64,000 nt of DNA from Lysobacterales bacterium 66-474 (GTDB taxonomy: Bacteria; Pseudomonadota; Gammaproteobacteria; Xanthomonadales; Rhodanobacteraceae). The DNA lies in contig MKWP01000015.1 in the NCBI GenBank assembly GCA_001899805.1, forward strand, positions 744,001-808,000, given 5' to 3'. Each line of letters begins with the position of its first letter. The stretch's first letter is position 1. The notes below the pieces were generated by a model. That model did no database searches. It was not told where the DNA came from and saw only the letters and a program-made list of their open reading frames with translations. Of the stretch, positions 39,276 to 57,009 are shown piece after piece. The translations under genes were made by a program, and so were the position numbers.

Positions 39276-40589
39276 TCAGAGCCGCGTCGTCGGCAGCGAC
39301 ACCGTCACCCGGAGCCCGCCGCCTTCGCGGTTGGCCAACACGATGCGCCCGCCGTGGGCCTCCACGATTTCGCGCGCCAGCGCGAGGCCGAGGCCGGTGC
39401 CGGAGCGCTTGGTGGAATAGAACGGCAGCAGCGCTTGCGCCAGCACAGTTTCGCTCATGCCGGGGCCGCGATCGGACACCTCGATGCGCCAATTGCGCGG
39501 ATCGTGGGTGATCGTCAGCGCCACCGCGTCGCCCTCGCTGCCGGATTCATGGGCATTCTTCACCAGGTTGATCAACACCTGTTCGATCTGCGCGGCATCG
39601 AAGCGCGCAGGTTCGGCCGGGACCTCGCCGCGCAACTGGAACTTGCAATGCAGTTTCAGCGAATCGAGGAACGCGGCCCAATCGACCTGCGCAGGATTGG
39701 GCTGCGGCAGCTTGGCGAAACTCGCGTAGCCGGCCGTGAACGAATGCAGGTGGCGGACACGGTCGCCGATCCCCTCGAACACCTTGGGCAAGCGCGCCAG
39801 GTCGTTGCGCCGCGCCAGTTCCGCGCCGGAATGCGCCAGCGAGGAAATCGGCGCCAAAGAATTGTTCAACTCGTGGCTGATCACGCGGATCACGCGCTTC
39901 CACACCGCGACCTCCTGCCGCGACAGTTCGCGCGTCATCCGCTGCACCAGGTACAACTGGTGCGGACGCCCGTGCAGGCGGAAATCGCGCCGCGACAGGT
40001 GGAAGTATTCCTCGTCGTTGCCCATTTCCACGCCGAACAGGCTGTCCTCGCTGGCGGTCAGCGCCTGCCGCATCGCCTCGGGGCAGGCCTCCAGCACTTC
40101 CTCGAAACGCAACCCCGCCGGGTTCTTGCCGTCGTTGAAGAGGTGCCGCGCCGCGAGGTTGGCGTACACGATGTGGTCGCCGGCATCGGTGAGGACCAGT
40201 GCGGTCGGCGAATGCTGCACCACGGTGTCCAGCAGCAATTCGCGTTGCACCAGGTTCTGGCGCTGTTCGCGCAGGGCGTGGCCGAGCTCGTTGTGCGCCT
40301 CGATCAGCGCGCCGAGTTCGTCGCGGCGGCGGGTGCGCAACGAAATGCTGAAATCGCCGTCGCGGTAACTCGCGACGCTGCCCGACAACGCACGCAGCAG
40401 GCGCCGCACGGGCTGCATCGCGGCGTGCGCCGCCCAGGCCAACGGGGCAAGGCACGCCGCGACCGCGATCACGCCGCCCAGCCACGCGCTGCGCGTCCAC
40501 TCGGCGATGACTGCGGCGATCGCCGCGCCGACCGCCGCGGAACCGACCAGCAACAGCGCGAGTTTGCCTTCGAGGGAGGATATGCGCAT
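39276..40589 (-). CDS. Membrane sensor histidine kinase, NtrY-like
   Basis: 437 residues: two transmembrane helices close together (about 10-28 and 36-55) with almost no periplasmic loop, a HAMP-like linker (60-105), a PAS domain (about 118-215, VVQHSPTALVLTDAGDHIVYANLAA), phospho-acceptor His239 in RVISHELNNSLAPISSLAHSG, an N box LINLVKNAHES and G boxes SDRGPGM and GTGLGLALA. The architecture points to sensing within or at the membrane. The cognate partner is the sigma-54 regulator immediately upstream (217-bp gap), and the pair ends the long unit that starts with the efflux adaptor gene. Confidence 0.92.
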   Translation of the reverse strand: MRISSLEGKLALLLVGSAAVGAAIAAVIAEWTRSAWLGGVIAVAACLAPLAWAAHAAMQPVRRLLRALSGSVASYRDGDFSISLRTRRRDELGALIEAHNELGHALREQRQNLVQRELLLDTVVQHSPTALVLTDAGDHIVYANLAARHLFNDGKNPAGLRFEEVLEACPEAMRQALTASEDSLFGVEMGNDEEYFHLSRRDFRLHGRPHQLYLVQRMTRELSRQEVAVWKRVIRVISHELNNSLAPISSLAHSGAELARRNDLARLPKVFEGIGDRVRHLHSFTAGYASFAKLPQPNPAQVDWAAFLDSLKLHCKFQLRGEVPAEPARFDAAQIEQVLINLVKNAHESGSEGDAVALTITHDPRNWRIEVSDRGPGMSETVLAQALLPFYSTKRSGTGLGLALAREIVEAHGGRIVLANREGGGLRVTVSLPTTRL

Positions 40590-40806
40590 GGCGGACCAAT
40601 GTAATCGGAAATCGGACTACTCGAACTCGGAAGTGGCTCCAGGTGGCATCATCGCCTCGGAATCACGGGCCGCGCCAACGACGCGAAGATCCAAAACCGG
40701 CGATCGGGCGAGCAATCGTCCATGGTGCAGGGCGCCGGTGCGGCCATCCCTGGCCGCCCGTTCGACCCAGCGCGCGATGCCCCCGGCATCGCGCAAGCGC
40801 TGGCTC

Positions 40807-42150
<1,344 letters not shown>

Positions 42151-42295: not shown

Positions 42296-43189
42296 TCATC
42301 GCGGCGCGGCGGACTGCGCTTCGATGACTGCCTGCCTTGCCAATCGGCTCATCACCGCAAACCCCGCCGGGTCGGGATGGACCCCGTCCACCGACAGCTT
42401 CGCCTTGAAACCATGATGACCGTCATCCAGCGGCGTGAAGTAATCGACGTAGATCAGTCCCTGCCCGTGTGCATAGGTCTTGAGCCAGTGGTTGAATGCC
42501 AAGATGGCTTGCACGGGTTCGATGGAGGGCCGCCAGGGATAACGGGCCACCGGGGTGAGCGACCCGAGGATGACTCGGACATGGTGCGCCTGCGCCAGCT
42601 CCACCATGGTCTTGATGTTGTTCTCCATCGCTTCGAGTGACGTCGGGCCGGTATTGCCGGCGATGTCGTTGGTGCCGGCCAGGATGTGCACCACGGCCGG
42701 CTTCAGATCGAGTACGTCCGCCCTGAAGCGCAGCACCATCTGGGGCGTGGTCTGACCGCTGATGCCGCGATCGATCACGTCATGCGTGAAGAGGGTGGGG
42801 TCGCCCTCGCCCCACGATTCGGTGATGGAATCGCCGATGAAGACCACGCGATGGCTGGTTGCGGGCGGCAGCGCAGCGTTTGCCTTGCGATAGCGGCACA
42901 GGTCGCCGAAATCGTCCAGCGTGCGGCGAACCCACCAGGCCTTGGACGCGGCGGCCACTTCCGCACTCGGCTCGGGCGGCGGCAGATGATTTGCCTTGGC
43001 GGCGGCGACTCGTGCGTCGAAGGCCTTCACTGCCGGTGGCTGTGGCTCGAGCACGTCACACGGACGCGGGACTACGCCGATGGTTGCGGCAGCCACGGGC
43101 GCAGCCGAGGGTGAAGGTGCAGGCGTGGCGGCCGGCTGCGCGATCGAGGCGCCGCCCGCCAGCGCCACCGCGAGGACAAGCGAAATCAT
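42296..43189 (-). CDS. Exported SGNH/GDSL hydrolase
   Basis: 297 residues with a signal peptide (ends near GGASIAQ) and a Pro/Ala-rich linker, then an SGNH esterase domain from about 110: block I FIGDSITESWGEG (catalytic Ser), block II ISGQTTPQMV, block III AGTNDIAG and block V DGVHPDPAG (Asp and His). Such enzymes deacylate lipids or glycans in the envelope. The gene sits between the last permease gene and the response regulator, on the same strand with gaps of 218 and 145 bp, so it may be part of the same regulon. ATG 43189 follows GGAGG. Confidence 0.85.
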   Translation of the reverse strand: MISLVLAVALAGGASIAQPAATPAPSPSAAPVAAATIGVVPRPCDVLEPQPPAVKAFDARVAAAKANHLPPPEPSAEVAAASKAWWVRRTLDDFGDLCRYRKANAALPPATSHRVVFIGDSITESWGEGDPTLFTHDVIDRGISGQTTPQMVLRFRADVLDLKPAVVHILAGTNDIAGNTGPTSLEAMENNIKTMVELAQAHHVRVILGSLTPVARYPWRPSIEPVQAILAFNHWLKTYAHGQGLIYVDYFTPLDDGHHGFKAKLSVDGVHPDPAGFAVMSRLARQAVIEAQSAAPR

Positions 43190-43407: not shown

Positions 43408-44652
43408 TCACACGCTGCGCGTCGCGACCACCGGCGGCACGCGCGACGCGCGCAGCGCAGGAGCCAGCACCGCGAGCTGGCCCAACAACCACAGCATCCC
43501 TGCACCGACCGGCAGGTACCACAGCGGCAACCGCGGCAATTCGTAATGCTGCATCAGCAGCAGGTTCAGGCCGATCGACAGCAGCACGCCCAGCACCACG
43601 CCAAACGTCACGATCAGGAAGTTCTCGGTCTGGAAATAACGCAGGATGTCGCCACGCGTGGCCCCGATCGCGCGGCGGATGCCGATGCTGCGGGTACGCT
43701 GGCCCACCCAGAAATTCGCCAGGCCCGTGATGCCGAGCGCGGTGACGAACAGCAACCCCAGCGCCGAGGCGATCAGCAAGCCGATCATGGTGGTGTCGCG
43801 CTGGAAGTACTCCGCGCGGATTTGGGTATAGGTTTGCGTGTACTTCGGATTGATGATGCGACTCGGGTTGACCTTGAGCAGCGCTGCTTTGGCAGCCTTG
43901 AGGATTCGTTCGCGATTCTGGGGCGCACTGCGCATCACGTAATCGCTGCCGGGGCTGTTTGGCTTCTGCGGCCAAATAATGCTGTCGTAATTCGTGCCAG
44001 TGCCGTGCAGGTTGGGACGGAGCAAGGTCTTGACCACGCCAATCACGCGGATCGGGCTCTTCGCGCCGTTGTACATCTCCTTGCCCAGCGGGTCCTGACC
44101 CGGATAAAACCGATGCGCGAGCGCCTGGCTGATAATCGCAACCGGCGGAGTCTTCTGCCCAAGCACGTATTCGTCGGGAAGAAAATTTCGGCCCACGACA
44201 AGGTTCAGACCCAACGTCGGGATCAGGCCTGGCGAGCCGTTGTATATGCTGGAATCGATGCAGCCCGTTCCGTGCATGGACATGACTTGCATGGCCCGAT
44301 CCAGCGCCTGCTTGTCGGGACAAGTGCCAGAGGACCACTCGTTCCTGTTCAACGGCAGTGCGTAACTCACCGCGACAACCGATTCGACTCCGGGAATGGC
44401 TCGCAGTGCCGCGAGGTCGGCTTCGTGCTGCGCCCACGGATTCGTCTCGGCGTCCGGACCAATGCCAGTGCTGTGAATCACGGACAAGACGTTTTCATCG
44501 AGGCCACTCGGCAACGAAACCTGCTGCACGCGGTTGGCGATCATGAACGCGACGTTGCAGACGATGGCGCAGGTGAACGCAACCTGCAACGTCAGCAGGG
44601 TCGCGGTGAGCTTGTGGCGGCGCAGCGTTGAAATGATCGGTCGGATTTCCAC
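43408..44652 (-). CDS. MacB/FtsX-type ABC permease, type A, pair 1
   Basis: 414 residues: one N-terminal transmembrane helix (about 18-38), a periplasmic MacB_PCD domain (to about 275) and three C-terminal helices with FtsX coupling motif IGIRRAIGATRGDILRYFQTENF between the first two. No ATPase domain, so it depends on the ATPase at 54848-55579. GTG start at 44652 with a perfect AAGGAG, 11 bp after pair-mate B1. Shares the type-A start (PIISTLRRHK) and C-terminus (PPVVATRSV) with the A copies at 46160, 48851 and 51664. Family members act in lipoprotein extraction, peptide export or mechanotransmission; the substrate here is unknown. Confidence 0.88.
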   Translation of the reverse strand: MEIRPIISTLRRHKLTATLLTLQVAFTCAIVCNVAFMIANRVQQVSLPSGLDENVLSVIHSTGIGPDAETNPWAQHEADLAALRAIPGVESVVAVSYALPLNRNEWSSGTCPDKQALDRAMQVMSMHGTGCIDSSIYNGSPGLIPTLGLNLVVGRNFLPDEYVLGQKTPPVAIISQALAHRFYPGQDPLGKEMYNGAKSPIRVIGVVKTLLRPNLHGTGTNYDSIIWPQKPNSPGSDYVMRSAPQNRERILKAAKAALLKVNPSRIINPKYTQTYTQIRAEYFQRDTTMIGLLIASALGLLFVTALGITGLANFWVGQRTRSIGIRRAIGATRGDILRYFQTENFLIVTFGVVLGVLLSIGLNLLLMQHYELPRLPLWYLPVGAGMLWLLGQLAVLAPALRASRVPPVVATRSV

Positions 44653-44663: not shown

Positions 44664-45989
44664 TTACTGTGCCTTGAGTTGCAACGCAGGCGGCACCCGG
44701 CACGCGCGCCACGCAGGCAGCATGCCCGCCAGCACGCTCGCGACGATTGCCAACATCACTGTGCCAACCAGCATCGACGGATCCATCGAAGCGAGATGCG
44801 CATAGTCGTCGGGGCGTTGGCGGATGCTCCACAACCCGATCTGCGAAATGCCGAGCCCGAGCAAGCCGCCGGCCACGCCCACCAGCGCGGATTCGATGCC
44901 GAATTGCACGAAAATGTCGCGCGTGCGCGCACCCATCGCGCGCCGCACGCTGATTTCGCCGCTGCGACGCAGGAATTTCGCGAGCAGCAGCGCCACGATG
45001 TTGAGCATGGCGACGCCCAGGAAACCCAGCGCCAGCCACATCTGCAGCTTCACGTCATCGGGTACCAGATTCTCGTACTGCAGCCAACCCATCAGGCTGT
45101 ACAGCTTCGCGTTCGTGGGCGGCCGTTGATAGCGGCCCAGGGACTTCTGCTCGGCGGAATAGTCAACGAGGAATTGCCGGTACGTCGCCACCTGCGTTGG
45201 CGTATCCAGCTGCACCCAGAATTGAATCCATGTCGTGCTCGGGTCTCGCAGGTTGTCCCCGTTGGAATCGCTCCAACCGGAAATGTTGCCGGAAACCCGA
45301 AGGTCACCGTCCAATTGCTTGCTATTCAGTACGTCCGACAGTGGCAGGAAGAACTGATCGACATCACTGTAAAACTGGGCCGAAGCGTCGGCGTAAAACA
45401 GCGGCTTCGGCGCCCAATCCTTGGTCACTCCGACCACGCGATAGTCGAGTTCGCCAAGACGGACAGTTTTGCCCACCGCATTCGCGGCACCAAACAGCTT
45501 GCGCGCCAGCGTCTGCGTCAGAACCACTACGCGTGCGCTGGCCTGATCGTCCGTGGCTGTCCAGCCGCTCCCCTCGACAAACGGCACGCCGAACATGTCG
45601 AAGAATGCGTGCGTGGTGTAATGCCCATCCACATAGAACGGTTGCACATCGGTGCGCTGCGGCCACAACAGGACGCGGCCACCCGCCATGGCCGCCTGCC
45701 GCACCGCGCGGTGCGCGTGCAGTAAGGCCATCGCATCCGGCCAAGTCAGGTTCTGGTTCGGGTTGGTACCCAGCGGATCGGTCTTGTAATTGGTCGGCAA
45801 CGGATCAAGATGCGGGTAATACAAATGCGCGCTACGCCCCGGCAGCGGATCCTGCGTCATCACGTGCAGCACCGTGAGCATGGTCATGCTGGCGCCGATG
45901 CCGAGCCCGATCGCCAGCACCATCAGCGCGGTGAGTACCGGCGTGCGCTTCAGGCTGCGCAATGCGAGTTCGATGTAGTAGCTGAACAT
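44664..45989 (-). CDS. MacB/FtsX-type ABC permease, type B, pair 1
   Basis: 441 residues with type-B features: N-terminus MFSYYIELALRSLKR, first helix LMVLAIGLGIGASMTMLTVL, then the motif DPLPGRSAHLYYP; a large periplasmic domain; three C-terminal helices with ISVRRAMGARTRDIFVQFGIES and an end PALQLKAQ. Type B has a longer periplasmic region than type A and a distinct start, so the two are probably obligate partners of a heterodimer. Start ATG 45989 follows AAGGAGG. Preceded by a 170-bp gap that contains a MITE-like repeat. Confidence 0.88.
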   Translation of the reverse strand: MFSYYIELALRSLKRTPVLTALMVLAIGLGIGASMTMLTVLHVMTQDPLPGRSAHLYYPHLDPLPTNYKTDPLGTNPNQNLTWPDAMALLHAHRAVRQAAMAGGRVLLWPQRTDVQPFYVDGHYTTHAFFDMFGVPFVEGSGWTATDDQASARVVVLTQTLARKLFGAANAVGKTVRLGELDYRVVGVTKDWAPKPLFYADASAQFYSDVDQFFLPLSDVLNSKQLDGDLRVSGNISGWSDSNGDNLRDPSTTWIQFWVQLDTPTQVATYRQFLVDYSAEQKSLGRYQRPPTNAKLYSLMGWLQYENLVPDDVKLQMWLALGFLGVAMLNIVALLLAKFLRRSGEISVRRAMGARTRDIFVQFGIESALVGVAGGLLGLGISQIGLWSIRQRPDDYAHLASMDPSMLVGTVMLAIVASVLAGMLPAWRACRVPPALQLKAQ

Positions 45990-46013
45990 TGATCACCCCT
46001 CCTTCGCCAACCT

Positions 46014-46127
46014 CGTCATTCCGGGGCTGCCCGCGGGCTGCGCGGGCAGAACCCGGGATCGGTCTTTTGCCACGGAGACCGATTCCGGATTCCATCGCCG
46101 ATGGAGCCGGCGCGACCCCGGAATGAC
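46014..46127. repeat. MITE-like repeat CGTCATTCCGGGG...CCCCGGAATGAC between permease pairs 1 and 2
   Basis: 114 bp, same element as 28287-28402, including the internal ACCGATTCCGGATTCC and GCCGATGGAGC segments. Occupies most of the gap between the A2 stop and the B1 start. Confidence 0.87.
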
Positions 46128-46159
46128 AACTGCCACAAGTCGCGTTGCTGCGTTCCTCG

Positions 46160-47380
46160 TCACCCGCCCCTCGTCGCCACCACCGGCGGCACGTTGGACG
46201 CGCGCAACGCGGGGCCCAGCACCGCAAGTTGCCCCAGCAACCACAGTGCGATCGCACTGGCCGGCAGGTAGTACCAGGGCATGCGCAGCATCTGGTAGTG
46301 CTGCATGAGATACAGGTTGATGCCGAACGCGAGCAGCATCCCGATCGCCACTCCCGCCGTGCTCAACAGGAAATTCTCGGTCTGGAAGTACTGCAGGATG
46401 TGCGCACGCGTCGCGCCGACCGCGCGCCGGATGCCGATCTGCCTGCGCCGCTGGCCGACCCAGAAACTGGTCAAGCCGACGATGCCGAATGCGGTCACCG
46501 CCAGCATCACCACGCACACCAGCACCAGCATCCAGACCATGCTGCGGCTGTCGGCGAAATACTTGTCGCGGATTTCGGTGAAGGTCTTGCCCTTGACCAC
46601 CGCGTTGGGCAACAGCGCCTCGGTCTTGCGCACGCCGTCGCGCAACACGCGGTCGCGATCGGCAGGTGCGCTGCGTACCACGTAGTTGCTGATGTTGGGG
46701 CCGGGACTGATCGGGAAGAACAGGCTGTGGTAGAAACCGGACAGTCCCTGTCCGTTCTCGCTGGGGCGCAGCACATTCCCGACGATGCCGACCACCGTGT
46801 AGTGGAGATCGTCGCCAATCCAGATTTGTTTGCCCAGCGCCGGCTGGCCCGGCCACAGGCGCCCGGCCAGACTGGGGGTGACCAGCACCACGTGGCCGCT
46901 GGGCAGGTAGGACCCCCCGAGTTTGCTGTCGGCGTATTCGGTGGCGGTGAAAAAGCGGCCCTTCAGCAATTGCAGGCCGAGCGCCTTGTCGCCGCTTTCG
47001 GTGAACATGTACATCATCACGTTCGGCGCATTTTTCTCGAACAGTTTCCCCGGGCCGGTCGCGACATCGCTGTTCCAGCCGTTGTTCGTGAGCGGCAGGC
47101 TGTTGAACGCGGCGGCGGCGGTCACGCCGGGGATGCCGCGCAGGGCGGCAAGGTCACGCGGCACGTCCGCGGCCATCGCCTCGGGATCGAGCCCCCTGAC
47201 ATCGAGGACAGACACCCCCGACTCGTCGATCGCATTCGACAAATGGATCTCGCCGAGTCGCTGGCCGATCATGAACACGGCATTGCAGAGCACCGCGCAA
47301 GCCAGCGCGATCTCGAGCACGATCAGTGCAGTCGGAATCTTGTGCTTGCGCAGGGCCGCGAGAATGGGCTGGATTTCCAT
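46160..47380 (-). CDS. MacB/FtsX-type ABC permease, type A, pair 2
   Basis: 406 residues, type A: MEIQPILAALRKHKIPTALI at the N-terminus, first helix about 17-38, periplasmic MacB_PCD domain, coupling motif IGIRRAVGATRAHILQYFQTENF, and C-terminus PPVVATRGG. Within the periplasmic domain the segment LWPGQPALGKQIWIGDD...VVGIVGNV is the usual MacB_PCD core. ATG 47380 lies 11 bp after the B2 stop, the same spacing as in pairs 1 and 4 (10-11 bp), as expected for tandem duplicates. Needs the separate ATPase. Confidence 0.88.
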   Translation of the reverse strand: MEIQPILAALRKHKIPTALIVLEIALACAVLCNAVFMIGQRLGEIHLSNAIDESGVSVLDVRGLDPEAMAADVPRDLAALRGIPGVTAAAAFNSLPLTNNGWNSDVATGPGKLFEKNAPNVMMYMFTESGDKALGLQLLKGRFFTATEYADSKLGGSYLPSGHVVLVTPSLAGRLWPGQPALGKQIWIGDDLHYTVVGIVGNVLRPSENGQGLSGFYHSLFFPISPGPNISNYVVRSAPADRDRVLRDGVRKTEALLPNAVVKGKTFTEIRDKYFADSRSMVWMLVLVCVVMLAVTAFGIVGLTSFWVGQRRRQIGIRRAVGATRAHILQYFQTENFLLSTAGVAIGMLLAFGINLYLMQHYQMLRMPWYYLPASAIALWLLGQLAVLGPALRASNVPPVVATRGG

Positions 47381-47391: not shown

Positions 47392-48702
47392 TCAGACGGC
47401 TTTCAGCTGCGGCGCCGGCGCCACCACGCAGGCGCGCCATGCAGGCAGCAGTCCCGCGACCAGGCTTGCGATCAGCGCGACCACGAAGGTGAGAGCGAAC
47501 ATCGCAAGGTCGAGGTGCGCGAGGCTGGCGTACTGTGCCGGCTGGTGGCGTACCGCCCACAATCCGAGTTCGGCGAACACCAGCCCCAGCACGCCGCCGG
47601 CCACTCCGACCATCGCCGATTCGATCATGAACTGCGCGAAGATCGCGCTGCGCGTCGCGCCCAGCGCACGGCGCACACCGATCTCGCGCGAACGGCGCAG
47701 GCACTTGGCCAGCAACAGGCCCACGGTGTTGACCACGCAGATCAACAGGAATCCGAACGCCAGGTTGGCCTGCAGGCGCGCGTCGCTGGGCACCACCTGT
47801 TGCTGGGCCAGGTAGTCCGCGAGGTCCGGCAGCGCAACTTCGGGATGGTGGAAGCGCCCCAGCGAAATCTGCTGCGCGACGTAATTGGACAGGAAGGTCT
47901 TGTAGGCGCCCGCATCCGCGGCACTCTCCAGTTCCACCCACAATGACACCCATGCGCACGGCGCGGTTTCCAGACTGGTGATGTCGGCGACCTGCCAGCA
48001 GTTGACGTTCTGCGGGTTCATCTTGTCGGCGCTGCCCGACTGCAACGGCAGGAACACCGCGTCGCCGTCGCCGTAACCGCGCCCGCCCAGGCTCACCGCG
48101 TAGAAGCGCGGTTGCGGCGCCCATTTCCCGGCGACGCCGACGATGCGGTAATCGTGGTCGTTGACGCGAACCGTCTGGCCGACGCTGTTCTTGCCGCCGA
48201 ACAGTTTGTCATTGAGCTCGGCCGCGATCACCGCCACCCGCGCGCGGTCTTCGCCGTCCTGCTCGCTCCAGCCGCCGCCGTACTCGAAGGGCACGTCGAA
48301 CATCGCGAAGAACGCCGCGGTCGTCATGACCCCGTTGCTGAAGAACGGGTGCTCGCCGGCTTGCTGCGGTCGAACCTTGACCGGGGTCAGCGCCATCGCC
48401 GCCTGCCGTTCGGCCCTGTGCGCGCGCAGCAGGTTCATGGCGTCGGTGTAGCTCATGATGTTACCCCAGCCGCGCCAGAGATCCGCAGGCTTGGTGGTAC
48501 TGTCCGCGGGCAGCGGATCGATTTCCGGTGCGAACACCCGCGCACTCTTGTGCGGCAACGGATCGCCGGACAACAGCTTCAACACCGTCAACGTGGTGAT
48601 CGACGCGCCGATGCCGAGGCCAAGTGCCAGCACCATCAGCGCGGTGAGCACGCGGTTGCGCCTGAAGCTGCGTACTGCGAGGTCGAGGTAATAGCCGAAC
48701 AT
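47392..48702 (-). CDS. MacB/FtsX-type ABC permease, type B, pair 2
   Basis: 436 residues, type B: MFGYYLDLAVRSFRRNRVLTALMVL at the start, DPLPHKSARVFAPEIDP after the first helix, a periplasmic domain with KLFGGKNSVGQTVRVNDHDYRIVGV, coupling motif IGVRRALGATRSAIFAQFMIESA and terminal PAPQLKAV. RBS CAGGAGA before ATG 48702. Compared with B1 it has a few different inserts in the periplasmic domain, which is where copies diverge most; membrane segments are nearly the same. Confidence 0.88.
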   Translation of the reverse strand: MFGYYLDLAVRSFRRNRVLTALMVLALGLGIGASITTLTVLKLLSGDPLPHKSARVFAPEIDPLPADSTTKPADLWRGWGNIMSYTDAMNLLRAHRAERQAAMALTPVKVRPQQAGEHPFFSNGVMTTAAFFAMFDVPFEYGGGWSEQDGEDRARVAVIAAELNDKLFGGKNSVGQTVRVNDHDYRIVGVAGKWAPQPRFYAVSLGGRGYGDGDAVFLPLQSGSADKMNPQNVNCWQVADITSLETAPCAWVSLWVELESAADAGAYKTFLSNYVAQQISLGRFHHPEVALPDLADYLAQQQVVPSDARLQANLAFGFLLICVVNTVGLLLAKCLRRSREIGVRRALGATRSAIFAQFMIESAMVGVAGGVLGLVFAELGLWAVRHQPAQYASLAHLDLAMFALTFVVALIASLVAGLLPAWRACVVAPAPQLKAV

Positions 48703-48724
48703 TCAATCGTCTCCTGATTCAACT

Positions 48725-48838: not shown

Positions 48839-48850
48839 GAAACAGCAGCT

Positions 48851-50065
48851 TCAAACGCTCCTTGTCGCCACCACCGGCGGCACCGCCGCGGCCCGCAGCG
48901 CCGGCGCCAGCACCGCCAGTTGTCCCAGCAGCCACAGCACCAACGCGCCGATCGGCAGGTACCAATACGGCAAACGAGGGACTTCGAAGAGCTTCATCAG
49001 CGACAGGTTGATTCCGACCGCCAGCACGATTCCCAGCACGATCCCGAACGTGACGATCAGGAAATTCTCGATCTGGAAATAGCGCAGGATGTCCGCGCGC
49101 GTCGCACCCAGCGCGCGGCGGATGCCGATCTGCTTGCGCCGCTGCGCGACCCAGAAACTGGCGAGCCCCACGATGCCGAGTGCGGTCACCAGCAACAGCG
49201 CCGCGATCACGCCCAGCAGGATGCCGGCCATCGCGCGGTCGGTCTTGAAGAAGGCATGGCGAAGTTCGCCGACGGTCCTGCTGGTGTCGTGATCGAGCAC
49301 CACGTCCGGTGCGATCGTGCGAACCGCGGCCTTGGCTTCCGTCATCACGCGATCGATGTTTTGCGGATCGGCGCGCACCACGTAATTCCCGGACAGCATC
49401 CCGCCCGGCGCCGCCGGCACGAACACCGACCAGTCGGCACCGCGCACGCCAGTCTCGGTGTACTGCGAAACCATCAAATGCTCGACCACGCCGATCACGC
49501 GGAAAGTGATGTTCATCCCCCAGAACTCCTTGCCCAGCGGGTTCTCACCCGGCCACAGGTGTTCGGCGAGCGTGCGCGTGATCAACACGCGGGGATTGGG
49601 AGGCATGTAGCCCTGCAAAGGCTGGTAATCGTCCGCGCCCGGCATGTGCCCGGCCACCAGCCTCAGGCCCAGCGCCTGCGGCGTGCCCGGACCGCCTTCG
49701 TAGAATTCGATGACACCGCCGGAACGCTTGCCAGCCTGATCGAGCGAGATCCCGGCGACGCCCCACTGCGGGCCGAACGGCACGCTGCTGACCACGTTCG
49801 CATCCTGCACGCCGGGGATCGCGCGCAAGCCCGTCAACATGCGGGCATTCAGGTCGTTCGCCTGCGCGGGATCGAAACCGGTCACGGCAATGTTGCCGAG
49901 CGCGCTTTCGTCCACGCCGCTGACCATGCGCATCGCAGCGATGCGGCCCGCGATCATCGACGTGGCATTGCACAGCACCGCGCAAGCCAGGGCGATCTCC
50001 AGCGCGATCAGGATTGTCGCGAGCCTGTGTTTCCTGAGTGCCGCGAGGATGGGTTGGATTTGCAT
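48851..50065 (-). CDS. MacB/FtsX-type ABC permease, type A, pair 3
   Basis: 404 residues, type A: MQIQPILAALRKHRLATILIALEIALACAVLCNATSMI, periplasmic MacB_PCD domain with LWPGENPLGKEFWGMNITFRVIGVVEH, coupling motif IGIRRALGATRADILRYFQIENF, and PPVVATRSV at the end. In this pair the A and B genes are separated by 128 bp carrying a GC-rich repeat rather than by 10-11 bp, so an insertion has split the pair. Membrane portions are close to those of A1 and A4, and the periplasmic part differs. Confidence 0.88.
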   Translation of the reverse strand: MQIQPILAALRKHRLATILIALEIALACAVLCNATSMIAGRIAAMRMVSGVDESALGNIAVTGFDPAQANDLNARMLTGLRAIPGVQDANVVSSVPFGPQWGVAGISLDQAGKRSGGVIEFYEGGPGTPQALGLRLVAGHMPGADDYQPLQGYMPPNPRVLITRTLAEHLWPGENPLGKEFWGMNITFRVIGVVEHLMVSQYTETGVRGADWSVFVPAAPGGMLSGNYVVRADPQNIDRVMTEAKAAVRTIAPDVVLDHDTSRTVGELRHAFFKTDRAMAGILLGVIAALLLVTALGIVGLASFWVAQRRKQIGIRRALGATRADILRYFQIENFLIVTFGIVLGIVLAVGINLSLMKLFEVPRLPYWYLPIGALVLWLLGQLAVLAPALRAAAVPPVVATRSV

Positions 50066-50186: not shown

Positions 50187-50193
50187 AAATGGA

Positions 50194-51513
50194 TTACAGG
50201 GTCTTCAACTGCAGCGCAGGCGCGACGCGGCTGGCGCGCAAGGCGGGCAACGCGCCCGCGAGCAAACTCACGGCAACCGCCAACGCGAACGTCGCCACGA
50301 ACATCGCCACGTCCAGGTGCACCAGGTCGGAATACGGCATCTTCTGGCTTCGCACCAGCCACAGGCCGACCAGCGTGAGCAGCCAGCCAGCCACGCCGCC
50401 GATGAATCCGATCAATCCGGCTTCGGTCAGGCATTGCGCGAGTACCGTACGTCGCGATGCGCCCAGCGCGCGGCGCACGCCGATTTCACCGGCGCGGCGC
50501 AGGAACTTCGCCAGCAACAAGCCCACGGTGTTGAACAGGCAGATCGCCAGGAACGCAAACGCCAGCCAGGTCTGCAGCTTCACGTCGCTCGGCAACACGT
50601 GGTTGTAGTCGAGCCAGCCCATCAGGTCCAGCATGCGCGTGTCGGTCTTGGTGAACCGCCCCAGCGCCTTCTGCTGCTGGGCGTAGCTGGCGATGAAATC
50701 ACGATAGCTGGCGACTTTCGCGGCGCCCTCCAGTTCCACCCACAGGCTGACCCACACGCACGGCGAGTTCTGAAGATGCCCCGGCGTGGATGGCATGCCC
50801 CAGCAGGTGAATTGCTGGAACGCGCCATCGTTGACTTCAAGGCCGGTCTGGAACGGCACGAACACGTCTTCCGGCTTGCCGTAAAAACCCGCGGTGTCGC
50901 CGTTGGCGTAGTTGCCCGCGACCACCGTGTAGAACTGCGGCGACGGCCGCCACGGCTTCAGCACGCCAACGATGCGGACGTTGCTGTCCTTCAGGCGCAA
51001 GGTCTTGCCCACGCTGTTCTTGCCGCCGAACAGCCGGTCGTTGAGGTTGCCCGAGATGATCGCGACGCGTGCGCGATTCTCATCGTCGGCCGGCGTCCAG
51101 CCGCTGCCGTATTCGAACGGCACGTTGAACATCGGAAAGAAGTCCGACGTGGTGGACAACATCGTCAGCATCAACGGCGGCAGGTTCGCCTCGGGCGCGC
51201 GCACCTTGACGCTGCTGTCCACGATCAATGCCTGGCGGTCGGCGCGATGCGCGCTCCACAAATCCACCGCCGAACGGTAATCCAGCATGTCGAGCGGATT
51301 CTTGTTGTGCCAGTCAGCGGGCGTGGCATCGACCTGCGGGTAATAGATGTTCGCGCTCCTGCCCGGGAGCGGATCGCCGGAAAGGATGTGCATCACCGTC
51401 AGCGTGGTCATCGACGCGCCGATGCCCACGGCGATCGCCAGCACCATCAGGAACGTGAGCACCGGATTGCGCTTGAGGCTGCGGATGGCGAGGTCGAGGT
51501 AGTACGCAAACAT
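50194..51513 (-). CDS. MacB/FtsX-type ABC permease, type B, pair 3
   Basis: 439 residues, type B: MFAYYLDLAIRSLKRNPVLTFLMVLAIAVGIGASMTTLTV, then DPLPGRSANIYYPQVDA; periplasmic region with RLFGGKNSVGKTLRLKDSNVRIVGV; coupling motif IGVRRALGASRRTVLAQCLTEAG; and terminal APALQLKTL. RBS AAGGAG before ATG 51513. Intact, with no frameshift. It is preceded and followed by repeats, which separate it from both neighbours. Confidence 0.88.
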   Translation of the reverse strand: MFAYYLDLAIRSLKRNPVLTFLMVLAIAVGIGASMTTLTVMHILSGDPLPGRSANIYYPQVDATPADWHNKNPLDMLDYRSAVDLWSAHRADRQALIVDSSVKVRAPEANLPPLMLTMLSTTSDFFPMFNVPFEYGSGWTPADDENRARVAIISGNLNDRLFGGKNSVGKTLRLKDSNVRIVGVLKPWRPSPQFYTVVAGNYANGDTAGFYGKPEDVFVPFQTGLEVNDGAFQQFTCWGMPSTPGHLQNSPCVWVSLWVELEGAAKVASYRDFIASYAQQQKALGRFTKTDTRMLDLMGWLDYNHVLPSDVKLQTWLAFAFLAICLFNTVGLLLAKFLRRAGEIGVRRALGASRRTVLAQCLTEAGLIGFIGGVAGWLLTLVGLWLVRSQKMPYSDLVHLDVAMFVATFALAVAVSLLAGALPALRASRVAPALQLKTL

Positions 51514-51533
51514 TGTTGCTCCTTGCTTGGAAT

Positions 51534-51655
51534 CCCTCTCCCATCGGGAGAGGGTGGCGCGAAGCGCCGGGTGAGGGTCCGATCACACGCATGCATCACG
51601 CGGGTTCGCACCCTCATCCGCCCCTGCGGGGCACCTTCTCCCGGAGGGAGAAGGG
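51534..51655. repeat. Palindromic intergenic repeat between A4 and B3
   Basis: Starts CCCTCTCCCATCGGGAGAGGG, ends CCTTCTCCCGGAGGGAGAAGG; inner GGGTGAGGGTCCG and CACCCTCATCCGCCCC. Fills nearly all of the 150-bp gap. Confidence 0.9.
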
Positions 51656-51663
51656 AACAGCAC

Positions 51664-52923
51664 TCACACCGATCGCGTTGCCTCCACCGGCGATACCTTC
51701 GACGCACGCCGCGCCGGCGCGAACACCGCGCCCTGCCCCAGCACCAGCAGCACGACCACCCCGACGAGCACGTAAGTGATCGACATCCGGTCCATCTGGA
51801 ACTGCTTCATCAACCACAGGTTCAACCCGACCGCGAGGATCGCGCCCAGCACCACGCCGACGCCCGCGATCATCAGGTTCTCGGTCTGGAAGTAACGCAG
51901 GATGTCGACTTGCGTTGCGCCCAGCGCGCGGCGGATGCCGATCTGCTTGCGCCTCTGGCCCACCCAGAAGCTGGTGAGGCCGACGATGCCCGCGCCGGTG
52001 ACACACAGCAGGATCAGGCAGATCACGCCCATCAGGACCGCCATGCCGCGGTCGGCGCGATAGGCGTACCTGCGGATCTCGGCGAACGAATGCACAGATT
52101 TGTCTTCGAATTTGGCGCCGGTTTCGATCACTCGCATCGGATTGGACGCATACAGCGCCTTGGGCGCCTCGCGCATCGCGGCGTCGAGGCGGCCGGGCTT
52201 GGCGCGCACCGCGTAGCGGGAGAAGCCGGCATCCAGCCGCGTGGGAATCAGCACCGAATTCCAGAACCAGCTGTTGGCCCAGCTGTTCACGCTCGGCACC
52301 TGCATCCGTTCGACGATGCCGACGATGGTGGTGGGATTGCGATCGATGTAAACCGTCTTGCCCAACGCGTCGCCTTTCGGGAACAGTTTGTCGCCCAGGG
52401 CCTTGGTGACGATGATCACGGGCGGCTTGTTGTGGCCACGGAACCCCATGTGGCCGATTTCCGCGGAAGTGAAATTGCGGCCCGCGACCAGCTTGAGCCC
52501 CAGCGTGGGAACCATCTGCTCGGTGCCGAAGTAGAGCGCCGCCTGCGCGGTCGAACGTTGCTGGTCGGGCTTGAGGCTGATGCCCGTGCTCCAGGTGCTG
52601 TTGACCAGCGGCAACGTGTTGACGGCGATCGCGGATTCGACGTCCGGCAGATTGCGCAAGGTCGCGACGTCGGCCTGTTGCATCGAATCGAGCTTGTCGA
52701 TGCTGCCCTCGTCGTCGCCGGTCGGCGCGCCGACCCAGCTTTGCGTGACCAGGAACAGGTTGTTTTCGTCGATGCCGCTGGGGCGATTGATGCGGTCGAC
52801 GCGCTGGCCGATGATGAACACCGCGTTGCACACGATCGCCAGCGTCAACGCGATCTGCAGGGTGATCAGCGTGACGCCGGCCTTGTGCTTCTTCAGCGCC
52901 GCAAGGATGGGGTGGAGTGTCAT
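51664..52923 (-). CDS. MacB/FtsX-type ABC permease, type A, pair 4
   Basis: 419 residues, type A: MTLHPILAALKKHKAGVTLITLQIALTLAIVCNAVFIIGQRVDRINRP; periplasmic domain with LFPKGDALGKTVYIDRNPTTIVGIVERM; coupling motif IGIRRALGATQVDILRYFQTENL; C-terminus PVEATRSV, closest to the classical MacB/FtsX ending. ATG 52923 lies 10 bp after the B4 stop. It is the first type-A permease in transcription order and may represent the ancestral pair together with B4. Confidence 0.88.
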   Translation of the reverse strand: MTLHPILAALKKHKAGVTLITLQIALTLAIVCNAVFIIGQRVDRINRPSGIDENNLFLVTQSWVGAPTGDDEGSIDKLDSMQQADVATLRNLPDVESAIAVNTLPLVNSTWSTGISLKPDQQRSTAQAALYFGTEQMVPTLGLKLVAGRNFTSAEIGHMGFRGHNKPPVIIVTKALGDKLFPKGDALGKTVYIDRNPTTIVGIVERMQVPSVNSWANSWFWNSVLIPTRLDAGFSRYAVRAKPGRLDAAMREAPKALYASNPMRVIETGAKFEDKSVHSFAEIRRYAYRADRGMAVLMGVICLILLCVTGAGIVGLTSFWVGQRRKQIGIRRALGATQVDILRYFQTENLMIAGVGVVLGAILAVGLNLWLMKQFQMDRMSITYVLVGVVVLLVLGQGAVFAPARRASKVSPVEATRSV

Positions 52924-52933: not shown

Positions 52934-54250
52934 TCAATTCGATTTCAACTGCCACGCCGGCTGCACCGCCGCCGCGCGCATGGTGGGATAGAGGCCGGCC
53001 AGCATCGTCGCCACGATCGCCACCGCAAGCGTGGTCGCGAACAGCGATACGTCCAGTCGCGCCAGGTCGGCGATGTCGCGCGGCAGTACCCAGCCGACGC
53101 CGACGATGCCCAGCCACGTGAGCAGCAAGCCCAGTGCGCCGCCAGCCAACCCGACCATGCCGGCCTCGATGAGGAACTGCGTGTAGATCTCGCGGCGCGA
53201 CGCGCCCAATGCGCGGCGCACGCCGATCTCGCTGCTGCGACGCAGGAATTTCGCCAGCAACAGCCCCGCGGTGTTGACCAGGCACACCAGCAGCAGGCCC
53301 AACGCCACGTACAAGGAAATCCGGGTGTCGGGCGGCACCACGTGCTCGTGGTCCAGCCAGGCCATCAAACCGCGCAGCCGCACGTTCGGCGCCCAGCCCG
53401 GATAGCGCTGGCGCGCGAAACCTTCGAGGTAATCCTTGAAGCGTTGTGCGTCCGCGGCGCTGTCGAGCTGCACCATGTATTCGATCCAGATGCAACTGGA
53501 ACGCTGCAGGCCGACGAACCCGGTTTCCTTGGGCGCCTCGGAGCAATTGGTGTTGCCGTCGTTGGACATGTCCGCGGCGATCGTGGTGTTGAACGGCAGC
53601 AACACGCCTTCGTCCTGGCTGAGGAACCCGCCGGTGTTGACGACGTCGTAGAAGCGCGGCTGGGGATTCCATTCGCCCATCACACCGACCACGCGGTAAT
53701 CGTGGCCGTCGATGTTGATGGTCTTGCCGACGCTGTCGCCGCCGCCGAAGACCCTGCGGTTGACCTTGCTGCTGATCACCGCGACCTGCGCGCGACTCTC
53801 GTCGTCCGCGGCGCTCCAGCCGCTGCCGTACTTGAACGGCACGTCGACCATCGGAAAGAATTCGCTGAAAACGGCATGCCCCATGGTGTTGAACGGGTGC
53901 TCGCCGACTTTCGCCGGAACCACCGACGGCGAGAGCATGTACATCGCCGATTGCAGCTTCCCGCGATGGTCGCGCATGAGGCCGACCGCATCACCGTAGG
54001 TCAACGCATCCGGCGGGCCCTTCTCCGGATCGGGATTGTTCTTCTGCACCGTCGGCCCCCACGCATCGATCTGCGGCACGTAGAGCTTCGACGACTTCCA
54101 CGGGATCGGATCGCCGGAGACCGCACGGAACACCGACCAGGTGGTCATCGACGCAGCCACGCCGAAGCCGATGGTCAGGATCATCAACCCGGTGAGCGCC
54201 TTGTTGCGCTTCAGGCTGCGCAGTGCGAGGTCGAGGTAATACGCAAACAT
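52934..54250 (-). CDS. MacB/FtsX-type ABC permease, type B, pair 4
   Basis: 438 residues, type B: MFAYYLDLALRSLKRNKALTGLMILTIGFGVAASMTTWSV; after the helix DPIPWKSSKLYVPQIDAWGP; periplasmic domain with RVFGGGDSVGKTINIDGHDYRVVGV; coupling motif IGVRRALGASRREIYTQFLIEAG; end QPAWQLKSN. First permease after the ATPase and small-protein genes. Conserved Cys pairs appear in its periplasmic part (NCSEAPKETG, SCIWIEYM), mirrored in B2 and B3 (NCWQ/PCAWVSLW, TCWG/PCVWVSLW) but absent from B1. Confidence 0.88.
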   Translation of the reverse strand: MFAYYLDLALRSLKRNKALTGLMILTIGFGVAASMTTWSVFRAVSGDPIPWKSSKLYVPQIDAWGPTVQKNNPDPEKGPPDALTYGDAVGLMRDHRGKLQSAMYMLSPSVVPAKVGEHPFNTMGHAVFSEFFPMVDVPFKYGSGWSAADDESRAQVAVISSKVNRRVFGGGDSVGKTINIDGHDYRVVGVMGEWNPQPRFYDVVNTGGFLSQDEGVLLPFNTTIAADMSNDGNTNCSEAPKETGFVGLQRSSCIWIEYMVQLDSAADAQRFKDYLEGFARQRYPGWAPNVRLRGLMAWLDHEHVVPPDTRISLYVALGLLLVCLVNTAGLLLAKFLRRSSEIGVRRALGASRREIYTQFLIEAGMVGLAGGALGLLLTWLGIVGVGWVLPRDIADLARLDVSLFATTLAVAIVATMLAGLYPTMRAAAVQPAWQLKSN

Positions 54251-54388: not shown

Positions 54389-54691
54389 TCACCCGCCCAC
54401 CGCCACCGTGCACGGCGTCGCGAACGAGTAGTACGGCATCTCGATGCAGGCGGCCTGGCCGCCCGCATCCGCCTGCGGCGGTACGACGGCCGCGCTTTGC
54501 TCGCCGCGCAGCGCGCGCAGCTGGTCCGCGCTGGGATGCACGTGGATGACGGGCAGCGTGATGATCGCCGGGGCTGCGCCGGGAGCCGGCGCGGCACTCG
54601 CAACCACGGCGGCGCTCCACGCATGGAACCATGCGAGCACGGCACAGTTGATCAGGATGGCGGCGGTGATGGCGATGAGCTTGCGGATCAT
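54389..54691 (-). CDS. Small membrane-anchored protein of unknown function in the transporter operon
   Basis: 100 residues; family not recognised. An N-terminal transmembrane or uncleaved signal segment (IAITAAILINCAVLAWFHAW, about 6-25), a Pro/Ala linker, a short conserved-looking stretch TLPVIHVHPSADQLRALRGE (45-64), then a C-terminal piece with two cysteines, Cys82 and Cys94, around IEMPYYSFATP, ending Gly-Gly. ATG 54691 is preceded by GAGGA at good distance, supporting real translation. It lies between the ATPase gene and the first permease gene with gaps of 156 and 138 bp. It might be an accessory subunit, a regulator or a transported substrate; no evidence separates these. Confidence 0.65.
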   Translation of the reverse strand: MIRKLIAITAAILINCAVLAWFHAWSAAVVASAAPAPGAAPAIITLPVIHVHPSADQLRALRGEQSAAVVPPQADAGGQAACIEMPYYSFATPCTVAVGG

Positions 54692-54847: not shown

Positions 54848-55579
54848 CTAAACCGCCCCGCCTTCGGCGATGGCTTCGGCACGCTTCGTTTTCGCGTGGA
54901 AACGCGGTTCCTCGGCGATGTCCACGGCCTGGCCATCGATCACGTGCACGGCGCGCTGTGCGCGCGTGGCGAGTTCGGGATCGTGGGTCACCATCACGAT
55001 GGTCGCGCCGCCGCGATGGATTTCCTCCAGCAGTTCCATCACGCCGCGCGCCATCTGCGTATCCAGGTTGCCGGTCGGTTCGTCCGCCAGCAGCAGGCGC
55101 GGCGAACCGGCCAGCGCGCGCGCGATCGCGACGCGCTGTTGCTGGCCGCCCGAGAGTTCCGCCGGGTAGTGCTTCATGCGCGAGGCCAGGCCGACGCGCT
55201 CCAGCGCCTCCTGGATGCGCTGGTTGCGTTCCGCGGACTTCATGCCGCGGTAGCGCAACGGCACTTCCACGTTGTCGTGCACGTTGAGGTCGGGGATCAG
55301 GTTGAAGCTCTGGAACACGAAACCGATCTTCTCGTTGCGGATCTTCGAGCGCGCGTTGTCGCCGAGGTTGCTGACGTCGGTGCCGTCCAGCACGTACTCG
55401 CCGCCGGTGAAGCTTTCCAGCAGGCCGGCGATGGTGAGGAAGGTGGTCTTGCCCGAACCGGACGGCCCCATCACCGCGACGAACTCGCCTTCCTTCACGT
55501 CGATGTTGAAGTCGCGCAGGGCGTAGGTCTCCACCACTTCGGTGCGGTAGACCTTGGACAGGTGGGTCATTTTCAGCAT
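54848..55579 (-). CDS. ABC transporter ATPase (MacB/LolD/YtrE type)
   Basis: 243 residues, the only ATPase in the cluster. Walker A GPSGSGKT (38-45), Q loop VFQSFNLIPDLNV, signature LSGGQQQRVAIARAL (142 on), Walker B LLLADEPTGNLD and H-loop VMVTHDPELATRAQR. The sequence is typical of the type VII (MacB/LolCDE/FtsEX) ATPases that drive permeases with large periplasmic domains. It presumably serves all four A-B permease pairs. ATG 55579 (MLKMTHLSKVY) is the normal start; longer in-frame sequence is the upstream repeat. Confidence 0.93.
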   Translation of the reverse strand: MLKMTHLSKVYRTEVVETYALRDFNIDVKEGEFVAVMGPSGSGKTTFLTIAGLLESFTGGEYVLDGTDVSNLGDNARSKIRNEKIGFVFQSFNLIPDLNVHDNVEVPLRYRGMKSAERNQRIQEALERVGLASRMKHYPAELSGGQQQRVAIARALAGSPRLLLADEPTGNLDTQMARGVMELLEEIHRGGATIVMVTHDPELATRAQRAVHVIDGQAVDIAEEPRFHAKTKRAEAIAEGGAV

Positions 55580-55608
55580 GGTTTTTTCCTCGGTGGTGGT
55601 GTTTTGCT

Positions 55609-55725
55609 CCCCTCTCCCGTCGGGAGAGGGGCGGGGGTGAGGGTTCGGGTCGCTTGCGTCCAACGTTCCGCAGGTTCCGGACCCTCATCCGGCCCTTCGG
55701 GCCACCTTCTCCCGGCGGGAGAAGG
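55609..55725. repeat. Palindromic intergenic repeat between the adaptor and ATPase genes
   Basis: CCCCTCTCCCGTCGGGAGAGGGG at one end and CCTTCTCCCGGCGGGAGAAGG at the other, with GTGAGGGTTCGGGT and GGACCCTCATCCGG inside, the same plan as the elements at 48725 and 51534. Confidence 0.9.
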
Positions 55726-55734
55726 AAAATCAAA

Positions 55735-57009
55735 TCAGTTGCTGATGGCGACTTTCGCCGCGCCGTTGAAACTGTCGGTGCCTGAGATCACGACCTTTTC
55801 GCCTTCCTTCAGGCCCTGCAGGATTTCGACCTTGTCGATGGAGCTGGGGCCGAGCGTCACCGGCGTCTTGTAGGCGATGCCGTCGCGCACGACATAGGCG
55901 TAGCGGCCGCCGGATTCGTCGACGAACGAACCGCGCGCGACGGTCAGCACGTTGTCGCGCTTGTCCAGCATGATGCGCACCGACAGCCGCTGGTTCTGGC
56001 GCAGGTCCTTGGGCTTGTCGCCCTCGAAGCGCACCCGCGCGACCACTTCGCCGTTCACGACTTCCGGAGAGATCGCGCTGACCGCGCCTTTCCAGTCGTT
56101 GCCGTTGCCGCTGATCGCGGCCGGCATGCCGGCGGCGAGGTCGCGTGCAAAGCTTTCGGGCACGTTCACCTGCACTTCCAGCGCGGACAGGTCCACCACC
56201 GTCAACAGCTTGGCGTCCTTCGGCACCGTCGCGGTCTGCGCGATGAACAGCTGGCCGACCTGGCCGCTGACCGGCGAGCGCACGTTCAACTCGTCGACCT
56301 GGCGCTGCACGTCCGCGACCAGCAGCTTCTGGCGATCGTAGGCGAGTTTCTTGGCCTTGATCTCCAGCGTCAGGCTGGAGTCGTCCATGCCGAGGTTGTC
56401 CTGGGCGTGCTGCATCTGGATCTGCGCCTTTTCCAGCGCGTCCTGGTGGCGGTCGACGTCGAGCTTCGACACCGCGCCCTTCTGGTAGGCCTCCTGGTAT
56501 CGCGCGAGGTCGCGCTTGGCGCTTTGCGCATCGATCTTGGCGTTCTCGAACGCTTCCTGCAGCTTGGAACGCTGCTGGTTGGCGTCGATCTTCGCCTGCT
56601 CGTACGCGACCTGCATCGCATCCTCGTTGTTCTGTTCCTGCGCGAGCTTGTTGGTGAGCTCGGGGCTCGCGATCACCGCCAGCACCTGGTCCTTCGCGAC
56701 CTTGTCGCCGGCGTGCACCTTCAGCACCACCGCGCCGCCCGCCCGCGCATACAGCGTGGGACTGACCGCCGCGACCACCCGCCCGTCGGCGGCGATGTCG
56801 CGCACGAAGTCGCCGCGTTCCACCGTCGCGATCTGCAGGCGCGAGGCGCTGACCGACGAGCCGGCACCCATCAACCGGATCGCGCCCGGCAGCAGCCAGA
56901 CCAGCAACAGCAACACCGCCACGCCGATGCCGGCTAAGACACCGAGTTTCTTCTTGCTGACGCGCTTCTCGATGATGCGGTCCTGCGCCGATGTATCGCG
57001 GATGCTCAT
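55735..57009 (-). CDS. MacA/HlyD-family periplasmic adaptor protein
   Basis: 424 residues: a short cytoplasmic N-terminus, one membrane anchor (LGVLAGIGVAVLLLLVWLLPGAI, about 22-44), a biotinyl-lipoyl half-motif (ARAGGAVVLKVHAGDKVAKDQVLAVI), a long alpha-helical hairpin (about 115-235, rich in Gln, Glu, Lys and Ala), the second lipoyl half (NVRSPVSGQVGQLFIAQTATV), a beta barrel and a membrane-proximal domain. Such adaptors link an inner-membrane pump to TolC-like outer-membrane channels; no channel gene is in the window. First gene of the transport unit, 43 bp downstream of the -24/-12 promoter. Start ATG 57009 follows AAGGA. Confidence 0.92.
   Translation of the reverse strand: MSIRDTSAQDRIIEKRVSKKKLGVLAGIGVAVLLLLVWLLPGAIRLMGAGSSVSASRLQIATVERGDFVRDIAADGRVVAAVSPTLYARAGGAVVLKVHAGDKVAKDQVLAVIASPELTNKLAQEQNNEDAMQVAYEQAKIDANQQRSKLQEAFENAKIDAQSAKRDLARYQEAYQKGAVSKLDVDRHQDALEKAQIQMQHAQDNLGMDDSSLTLEIKAKKLAYDRQKLLVADVQRQVDELNVRSPVSGQVGQLFIAQTATVPKDAKLLTVVDLSALEVQVNVPESFARDLAAGMPAAISGNGNDWKGAVSAISPEVVNGEVVARVRFEGDKPKDLRQNQRLSVRIMLDKRDNVLTVARGSFVDESGGRYAYVVRDGIAYKTPVTLGPSSIDKVEILQGLKEGEKVVISGTDSFNGAAKVAISN

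Follow-up and report, generated by a model that had tools for sequence, protein, structure and literature searches.

Gene organisation of the locus

The stretch analysed here (the window) comprises 64,000 nucleotides (nt) of Lysobacterales bacterium 66-474, a member of the Rhodanobacteraceae (contig MKWP01000015.1, positions 744,001 to 808,000), and lies in a genome of 3.7 Mb labelled G000, where G-numbers denote the genomes compared and L-numbers the loci. On its minus strand, from 57009 to 39276, the window carries an operon for an ATP-binding cassette (ABC) transport system that encodes a periplasmic adaptor, one ATPase, a small membrane protein, four tandem permease pairs (A1-B1 to A4-B4), an SGNH hydrolase, a response regulator and a histidine kinase. 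The permeases are labelled here A then B and from 1 to 4 in the order of transcription, while a first-pass annotation of the same DNA labelled them B then A and from 4 to 1. The gene layout and the eight intact permeases described in that annotation are confirmed, as every gene of the operon is intact at the coordinates below, and the layout recurs in related genomes and is thus not a product of chance. Orphan permease pairs, a TolC gene and the regulatory sites lie beyond the region that it covered.

55735..57009, minus strand: periplasmic adaptor, an RND/MacA-type membrane fusion protein of 424 amino acids (aa); Pfam HlyD_D23, NCBIfam RND_mfp above cut-off
54848..55579, minus strand: ABC ATPase, 243 aa, ATG at 55579; Pfam ABC_tran, best NCBIfam model DarD, below cut-off
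54389..54691, minus strand: small membrane-anchored protein, 100 aa, with two cysteines near the C-terminus; no Pfam match
52934..54250, minus strand: permease A1, type A, clade c6; MacB_PCD and FtsX, AlphaFold predicted local distance difference test (pLDDT) 84.3
51664..52923, minus strand: permease B1, type B, partner of A1; MacB_PCD and FtsX, AlphaFold pLDDT 92.1
50194..51513, minus strand: permease A2, clade c7; ADOP and MacB models
48851..50065, minus strand: permease B2; ADOP genome search and identity to B1
47392..48702, minus strand: permease A3, clade c9; ADOP and MacB models
46160..47380, minus strand: permease B3; ADOP genome search and identity to B1
44664..45989, minus strand: permease A4, clade c14; ADOP and MacB models
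43408..44652, minus strand: permease B4, GTG start; ADOP genome search and identity to B1
42296..43189, minus strand: secreted SGNH/GDSL hydrolase; Pfam Lipase_GDSL_2
40807..42150, minus strand: NtrC-type response regulator with receiver, AAA+ domain with GAFTGA, and Fis helix-turn-helix; domain and motif matches
39276..40589, minus strand: sensor histidine kinase with two N-terminal hydrophobic segments, a very short loop, HAMP and PAS
38268..39203, minus strand: SPFH/band-7 protein, a neighbour that follows the kinase gene in several related loci as well

Permease types, pairing and fold

Pfam identifies MacB_PCD and FtsX domains in A1 and B1, the two permeases scanned, while the ADOP and MacB models match A1-A4 and B1, and an ADOP search of G000 recovers all eight permeases of the window. 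The division into two types is real, type A corresponding to the first half of the ADOP permease (approximately 7-403 of 803) and type B to the second half (approximately 412-801). No copy in G000 reaches the ADOP cut-off (622.3 bits), and A and B are separate genes, not one fused polypeptide; judged from these matches, they correspond to an ADOP permease split into two halves with a gene each. Identity to the first copy of the same type is 42-48% for the other A and 41-43% for the other B permeases. A1 and B1 are halves with four transmembrane (TM) segments each and display the hallmark of type VII transporters, a periplasmic domain between TM1 and TM2, and their folds resemble the Streptococcus permease 5xu1, MacB and LolE.

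The trees of A and B mirror each other (r 0.93 over 242 pairs), while shuffling partners within genomes 500 times gave a mean of 0.12 and a maximum of 0.24. These trees include full-length permeases only (264 A and 253 B), and each named locus counts as one genome in the correlation; L073-L081, repeat contigs of the window's genus, were excluded, while L129, a copy of L039, was included and contributes 2 of the 242 pairs. In addition, 256 neighbour pairs have the order A-B, a count that includes some loci which are copies of a single contig. Tandem arrays of fused A-B (ADOP) homologues follow an adaptor and an ATPase in L193-L195, from other families of the order. As the mirrored trees indicate that pairs are inherited as units, the A-B pairs are most likely heterodimers, a proposal of the first-pass annotation that is well supported by the trees, the neighbour pairs and the fused homologues with similar neighbours.

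Among the seven G000 copies, the best-conserved parts are the segment between TM2 and TM3 of both proteins and the N-terminus of A, with an identity of 0.70-0.74 in A and 0.68-0.73 in B. The coupling segment between TM2 and TM3 itself reaches 0.70 in A (331-360) and 0.73 in B (331-360); across the periplasmic parts (61-300 in A and 61-300 in B) identity is just 0.26-0.51.

Age and number of the permease pairs

Clustering on summed A and B distances defined the pair types (c1, c6 and so on). The order in the window, c6-c7-c9-c14, is also found in G004 and G014, and G005 carries c6-c7-c9 and G011 c6-c7. Within G000, distances between copies are 0.65-2.58 (A) and 1.01-3.22 (B) substitutions per site, lowest between the two c11 orphan copies, while the nearest pair in another genome lies at 0.11-0.36 (A) and 0.12-0.47 (B) substitutions per site for all seven G000 pairs, and pair types recur across genera. 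By these distances, the four types in the window are old paralogues. The question raised in the first-pass annotation, whether the copies duplicated within the lineage, is thus mostly answered in the negative, and recent duplication is rejected for the main types, which are common to the genus and beyond. The choice of periplasmic specificities that it suggested would agree with paralogues that are old, have been kept apart and differ in their periplasmic domains.

The number of pairs per ATPase varies from one (L045, L199 and L201-L204) through two (L039), three (L011) and four (L200, from another family) to five in L018, counting one pair with a stop-interrupted A. Eight tandem pairs, counted by hand, are found in Dyella lutea (G028) and Dyella nitratireducens (G030).

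A shared palindrome and sigma-54-like promoter

Upstream of the adaptor gene, two regulatory sites are predicted.

57130..57156: predicted upstream activator site AGTGTCCGC-N9-GCGGACACT, with the core palindrome TGTCCGCGGACA at 57132-57143
57052..57067, minus strand: predicted sigma-54 (-24/-12) promoter TGGCATCGCACTTGCT, 16 bases, 64 nt downstream of the core

The core occurs four times in G000, namely before the operon, before the orphan pairs, approximately 950 nt ahead of tolC (the TolC-family gene of L006), and inside a coding region that we read as chloride-channel-like. Across 16 genomes of the genus, 53 cores are found, of which 14 lie before the adaptor gene and 14 upstream of tolC (928-1010 nt ahead of the match to TolC); 12 precede an A gene that does not stand with the ATPase, and 13 lie elsewhere. 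Three of these 13 precede a secreted GSGD-repeat protein, and of the other ten, nine fall in a probable coding frame. Using a relaxed promoter pattern (TGGCACN5TTGC with up to two mismatches, GG and GC fixed), a promoter-like site accompanies all 43 adaptor, tolC, A and GSGD sites, 41 times at 64-65 nt and twice at 53 nt, about one helical turn nearer. As controls, the opposite side of the sites gave a promoter-like site in 1 of 43, and the remaining cores in 1 of 10. The strict pattern is present at 14 of 14 adaptor sites and 3 of 3 GSGD sites.

An adaptor-alignment search for relatives returned 417 loci, and among the best 80 of these, ten (L073-L081 and L129) look like repeat contigs of the window's genus. 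The exact core is found upstream of the adaptor gene in 78 of the 80 and within one mismatch in all 80. A sigma-54-like site is likewise present in 80/80, with a spacing to the core of 64-69 nt in 74, 55-56 nt in five and 75 nt in one. The 1.49 Mb of these loci contain 78 cores in total, whereas 40 control palindromes matched in composition gave 0.3 on average and 3 at most. A chance motif is rejected by the control palindromes, the opposite side of the sites, shuffles and reversed patterns, the last giving mostly 0 sites with single exceptions in G021 (one site) and G014 (one palindromic site). A second match to the promoter pattern in the window, at 3956-3971, is taken as unrelated. The tolC gene stands within the operon itself in 11 of the 80 loci, and in G014 (L072) the site and tolC are separated by a gene for a PCMT methyltransferase. 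Outside the genus, among seven systems, the exact core is found in L199 and L200, and none in L045 and L201-L204.

With an NtrC-type regulator, a -24/-12 promoter and an upstream site, the operon has the predicted components of a sigma-54-dependent two-component system, and their linkage suggests that the operon's own regulator may bind the core. The GSGD-repeat (toastrack-like) protein, whose Pfam match is below cut-off, is found under the palindrome and promoter at L050:4754, L064:4703 and L071:4834; an OmpR-type response regulator gene follows, and L050 adds a kinase.

One ATPase and the orphan pairs

G000 contains one ATPase match at an E-value of 1e-70 or better, and orthologues at this threshold are found in 14 of the 16 genus genomes, one in each except G009, where a second ATPase of 57% identity stands beside a fused ADOP. 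Likewise, all 22 named genomes (22/22) contain exactly one ATPase at 85% identity or more. To this single ATPase, G000 has seven A-B pairs, four in the operon and three orphan, and Dyella nitratireducens has 14 (eight tandem and six elsewhere, counted by hand) to one close ATPase. By gene counts, then, one orthologue is accompanied by several permease sets, as would be expected of a multitask ATPase.

The three orphan pairs of G000 belong to types c1, c11 and c11 and are located on contig C2 (L001), where neither an ATPase nor an adaptor was found in the 20 kb examined. The same types stand within ATPase operons elsewhere, c1 in G003 and G009 (c1-c6-c7-c9) and c1 together with c11 in G013 (c1-c11-c6-c7-c9), and many ATPase operons of Dyella and Rhodanobacter also contain c1/c11 types. 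In addition, the orphan cluster has the upstream site and sigma-54 promoter predicted for the operon. On this sequence evidence, the orphan pairs belong to the exporter system. From the open reading frames, L001 is flanked by a biotin-dependent carboxylase-like gene on one side and an HMG-CoA-lyase-like gene on the other. The same genome also encodes a separate, distantly related MacB-like system with an adaptor, an ATPase and two permeases (L003:8311-12916).

Small membrane proteins, SGNH hydrolase and kinase

The small protein of 100 aa encoded between the ATPase and A1 is found in 21 loci, a count that takes in the window and repeated contigs. All of these loci belong to the window's genus, and some members of the family lack the cysteines. 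The gap from the ATPase to A1 measures 384-649 nt with the small protein versus 31-493 nt in loci without small protein or TolC.

A second group of small proteins was found through the site-plus-promoter pattern, which has 52 matches in 21 of the 22 named genomes and 0 with the reversed control. From their coordinates, 19 of the 52 were assigned to adaptor promoters, and 32 of the other 33 are readable, the site of L166 lying at an edge. Of these, 23 precede a peptide of 28-73 residues that starts with MKxE (VKFE in one) and has a single hydrophobic segment, and two C-terminal cysteines are invariant in the 17 longer MKxE peptides aligned. Two further sites lie before TolC genes, two before an orphan A-B pair, and five before something else, including proteins reading as secreted alpha/beta hydrolases. 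The Cys-pair peptides of 63-73 residues (L153-L185, e.g., L155:441-638) mostly adjoin trmL/ubiJ/ubiB-like genes in Dyella and Rhodanobacter, while the shorter forms precede genes reading as secreted hydrolases and peptidases. According to the excerpted text of PMC5985334, the small disulfide-bonded peptide STII is a substrate of MacAB, and dispersin leaves the cell through a related pump. A role of either small protein of the present system as cargo or cargo guide is speculative.

The SGNH hydrolase, listed with the system in the first-pass annotation, is not a conserved member. It has no match in the 46 other loci scanned, and a role as core part is rejected since it is seen in the window alone. 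By hydropathy, the kinase has two hydrophobic segments separated by a loop of about 7 residues, which fits a BceS-like layout; such a short-loop two-TM topology is typical of intramembrane-sensing kinases. Finally, repetitive extragenic palindromic (REP)-like GC-rich repeats (such as CTTCTCCC..GGGAGAAGG..ATGAGGGT..CCCTCACCC) occupy several of the gaps between permease genes and the one ahead of the ATPase gene, at approximately 48690-48870, 51500-51680, 55560-55750 and 45980-46175.

Distribution and comparison with known transporters

By recorded names, the relatives among the best 80 of 417 loci are mostly Rhodanobacteraceae, of the genera Dyella, Rhodanobacter, Frateuria, Luteibacter, Oleiagrimonas, Pinirhizobacter and Fulvimonas, and among the matches listed, dozens of Rhodanobacteraceae species, a large share of them isolates (Dyella, Rhodanobacter, Luteibacter, Frateuria), carry the system. 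In a class-level sample of 274 genomes, the adaptor is found at an E-value of 1e-60 or better in 7, G000 counted. The loci L193, L194 and L195 show a parallel multi-permease layout, two of the three with a second ATPase. A search of the open-access PMC literature found no description of this layout, in agreement with the earlier suggestion that it is undescribed.

The system resembles MacAB-TolC in its adaptor, its four-TM permeases with a large periplasmic domain and its putative TolC partner, and of the solved structures MacB ranks first by sequence and among the top matches by fold. However, MacB is described in the excerpts of PMC5985334 as a homodimer carrying its own ATPase domain, while here the ATPase is separate and the permeases are A-B pairs, several of them. 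Heterodimeric four-TM permeases and a separate shared ATPase are features of LolCDE as well, yet LolCDE has one pair only, an adaptor and TolC are present here, and the operon ATPase scores below the LolD equivalog cut-off (215.5 vs 307.75 bits). The ADOP family duplicated permease (TIGR03434) contains A and B as its halves, which are here split into two genes. For the Darobactin exporter, DarD is the best NCBIfam model for the ATPase and DarC the second for the adaptor, although both are far below their curated cut-offs (258.8 of 375 for DarD and 92.4 of 450 for DarC). A parallel to a shared motor comes from the multitask ATPases of sugar importers, among them MsmX and MsmK, where, in the excerpted parts of PMC7658222, one ATPase energises several permease sets, some without their own ATPase gene. 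Those systems are type I importers, in contrast to the probable type VII exporter described here and its sigma-54 regulon. Finally, YbbAP-TesA is reported as a type VII transporter paired with a GDSL esterase (PMC12646458, excerpts), similar to the SGNH gene beside the window permeases, but YbbP is a single long permease, the excerpts mention neither an adaptor nor TolC as its part, and the SGNH gene is not a conserved part of the present system. The parts are of known kinds, and what is new, as far as the literature searched shows, is the combination of one separate ATPase, many co-inherited heterodimeric permeases and a sigma-54 regulon.

Interpretation and alternative explanations

Taken together, we consider it reasonably likely that the operon encodes a sigma-54-controlled, MacAB-TolC-like type VII exporter in which one ATPase homodimer, the adaptor and TolC work with alternative heterodimeric permeases. 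The service of several pairs by one ATPase is supported by the gene counts, the shared regulon, the orphan types and the conserved coupling segment. The steps of activation, binding, shared energising and cargo selection that we infer would run as follows. The kinase would sense the state of the envelope, perhaps through the transporters, and activate the NtrC-type regulator, which would bind TGTCCGCGGACA and switch on the operon, the orphan pairs and tolC together. The ATPase dimer would couple to any A-B dimer via the conserved cytoplasmic segment between TM2 and TM3, while the diverged periplasmic domains would give each dimer a cargo of its own, either periplasmic or extracted from the membrane. 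This cargo would then pass to the adaptor and TolC for export. In G000, seven pairs would share the ATPase, the four in the operon and the three orphans on another contig. A bolder version is put forward tentatively and is doubtful, namely a multitask ATPase serving up to 14 interchangeable heterodimers in one sigma-54 regulon with tolC, with the Cys-pair peptides acting as cargoes or guides outside the genus.

Several findings weigh against the shared exporter. No ATPase match was found in two of the 16 genus genomes, G007 and G010; for G007 (81% complete), the gap is probably a contig break, as L078, apparently the contig with its adaptor gene, breaks off within the ATPase gene. The strict promoter pattern is found at only 4 of 12 orphan-A and 6 of 14 tolC sites, and TolC-family proteins usually serve several pumps. 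Stops interrupt three permease genes in sister genomes (L015, L018 and L022), compared with 149 that are full-length in the loci counted. The MKxE peptide was not found in the 16 genomes of the window's genus, bar one marginal match, and given this near-absence it is not supported as the window's own cargo. Support for the deep branch tested is very low (0.028), and the single pair of G016 falls among multi-pair copies in the tree, so that any order of duplications and losses, including a simple history of one ancestral pair that expanded once, is at best tentative. Finally, 12 of the 22 named genomes carry extra ATPases at 55-71% identity, which adjoin fused ADOP genes in the two genomes checked, and in such genomes an orphan pair could use one of these. 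More generally, the orphan pairs might be powered by other ABC ATPases, with the operon ATPase driving the operon pairs only, an explanation that could draw on these second ATPases and on the further MacB/LolD-like ATPases of G000 (L003 and L004). However, the orphan types stand within the ATPase operon of sister genomes and under the same sigma-54 control, making this explanation very improbable.

An alternative role would be that each pair is a sensor or extraction module in the style of BceAB-BceS or YbbAP-TesA, detecting antimicrobial peptides or lipids or pulling them out of the membrane, and signalling to the short-loop kinase, which would raise the whole set through sigma-54. The kinase with its two hydrophobic segments and loop of about 7 residues would suit such a role, as would the toastrack-like GSGD protein under the same sites in three genus genomes (Pfam below cut-off) and the precedent of YbbAP-TesA with its GDSL esterase (excerpts of PMC12646458), given the SGNH gene beside the window permeases. 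While these features fit, SGNH is confined to the window among the loci scanned, the MacA-type adaptor and co-regulated TolC point to export across the outer membrane, and BceB-type permeases are, in the excerpted PMC5985334, single proteins with both halves fused, whereas A and B are four-TM halves; we regard the sensor role as unlikely. It could also be argued that the copies are redundant and do not differ in specificity, either raising the amount of one exporter or assembling into a larger, mixed complex, since the coupling segment and the promoter system are common to all of them. Yet dosage copies are expected to be young and similar, and the types are old, kept apart across genera, with partners unmixed over evolution, and redundancy therefore appears quite improbable. 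Anti-phage defence was also considered but set aside, as the PADLOC matches to the ATPase resemble hits that any ATPase might give, and those to A1 look like weak LolE-like TM hits.

Returning to the shared exporter, its meaning lies in the contrast with type VII exporters as presented in the review excerpts consulted, where each ATPase serves a single permease or a single pair. If many heterodimers do share one ATPase, adaptor and TolC, their periplasmic domain would be an exchangeable part that sets specificity, and with related paralogues on one motor the substrate code could be tested directly by swaps. This would carry the concept of the multitask ATPase over from sugar importers to exporters, and the palindrome offers a ready handle on the regulon. 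Should the bolder version with up to 14 heterodimers prove true, the permease set of these bacteria would be a repertoire for small peptides or lipids.

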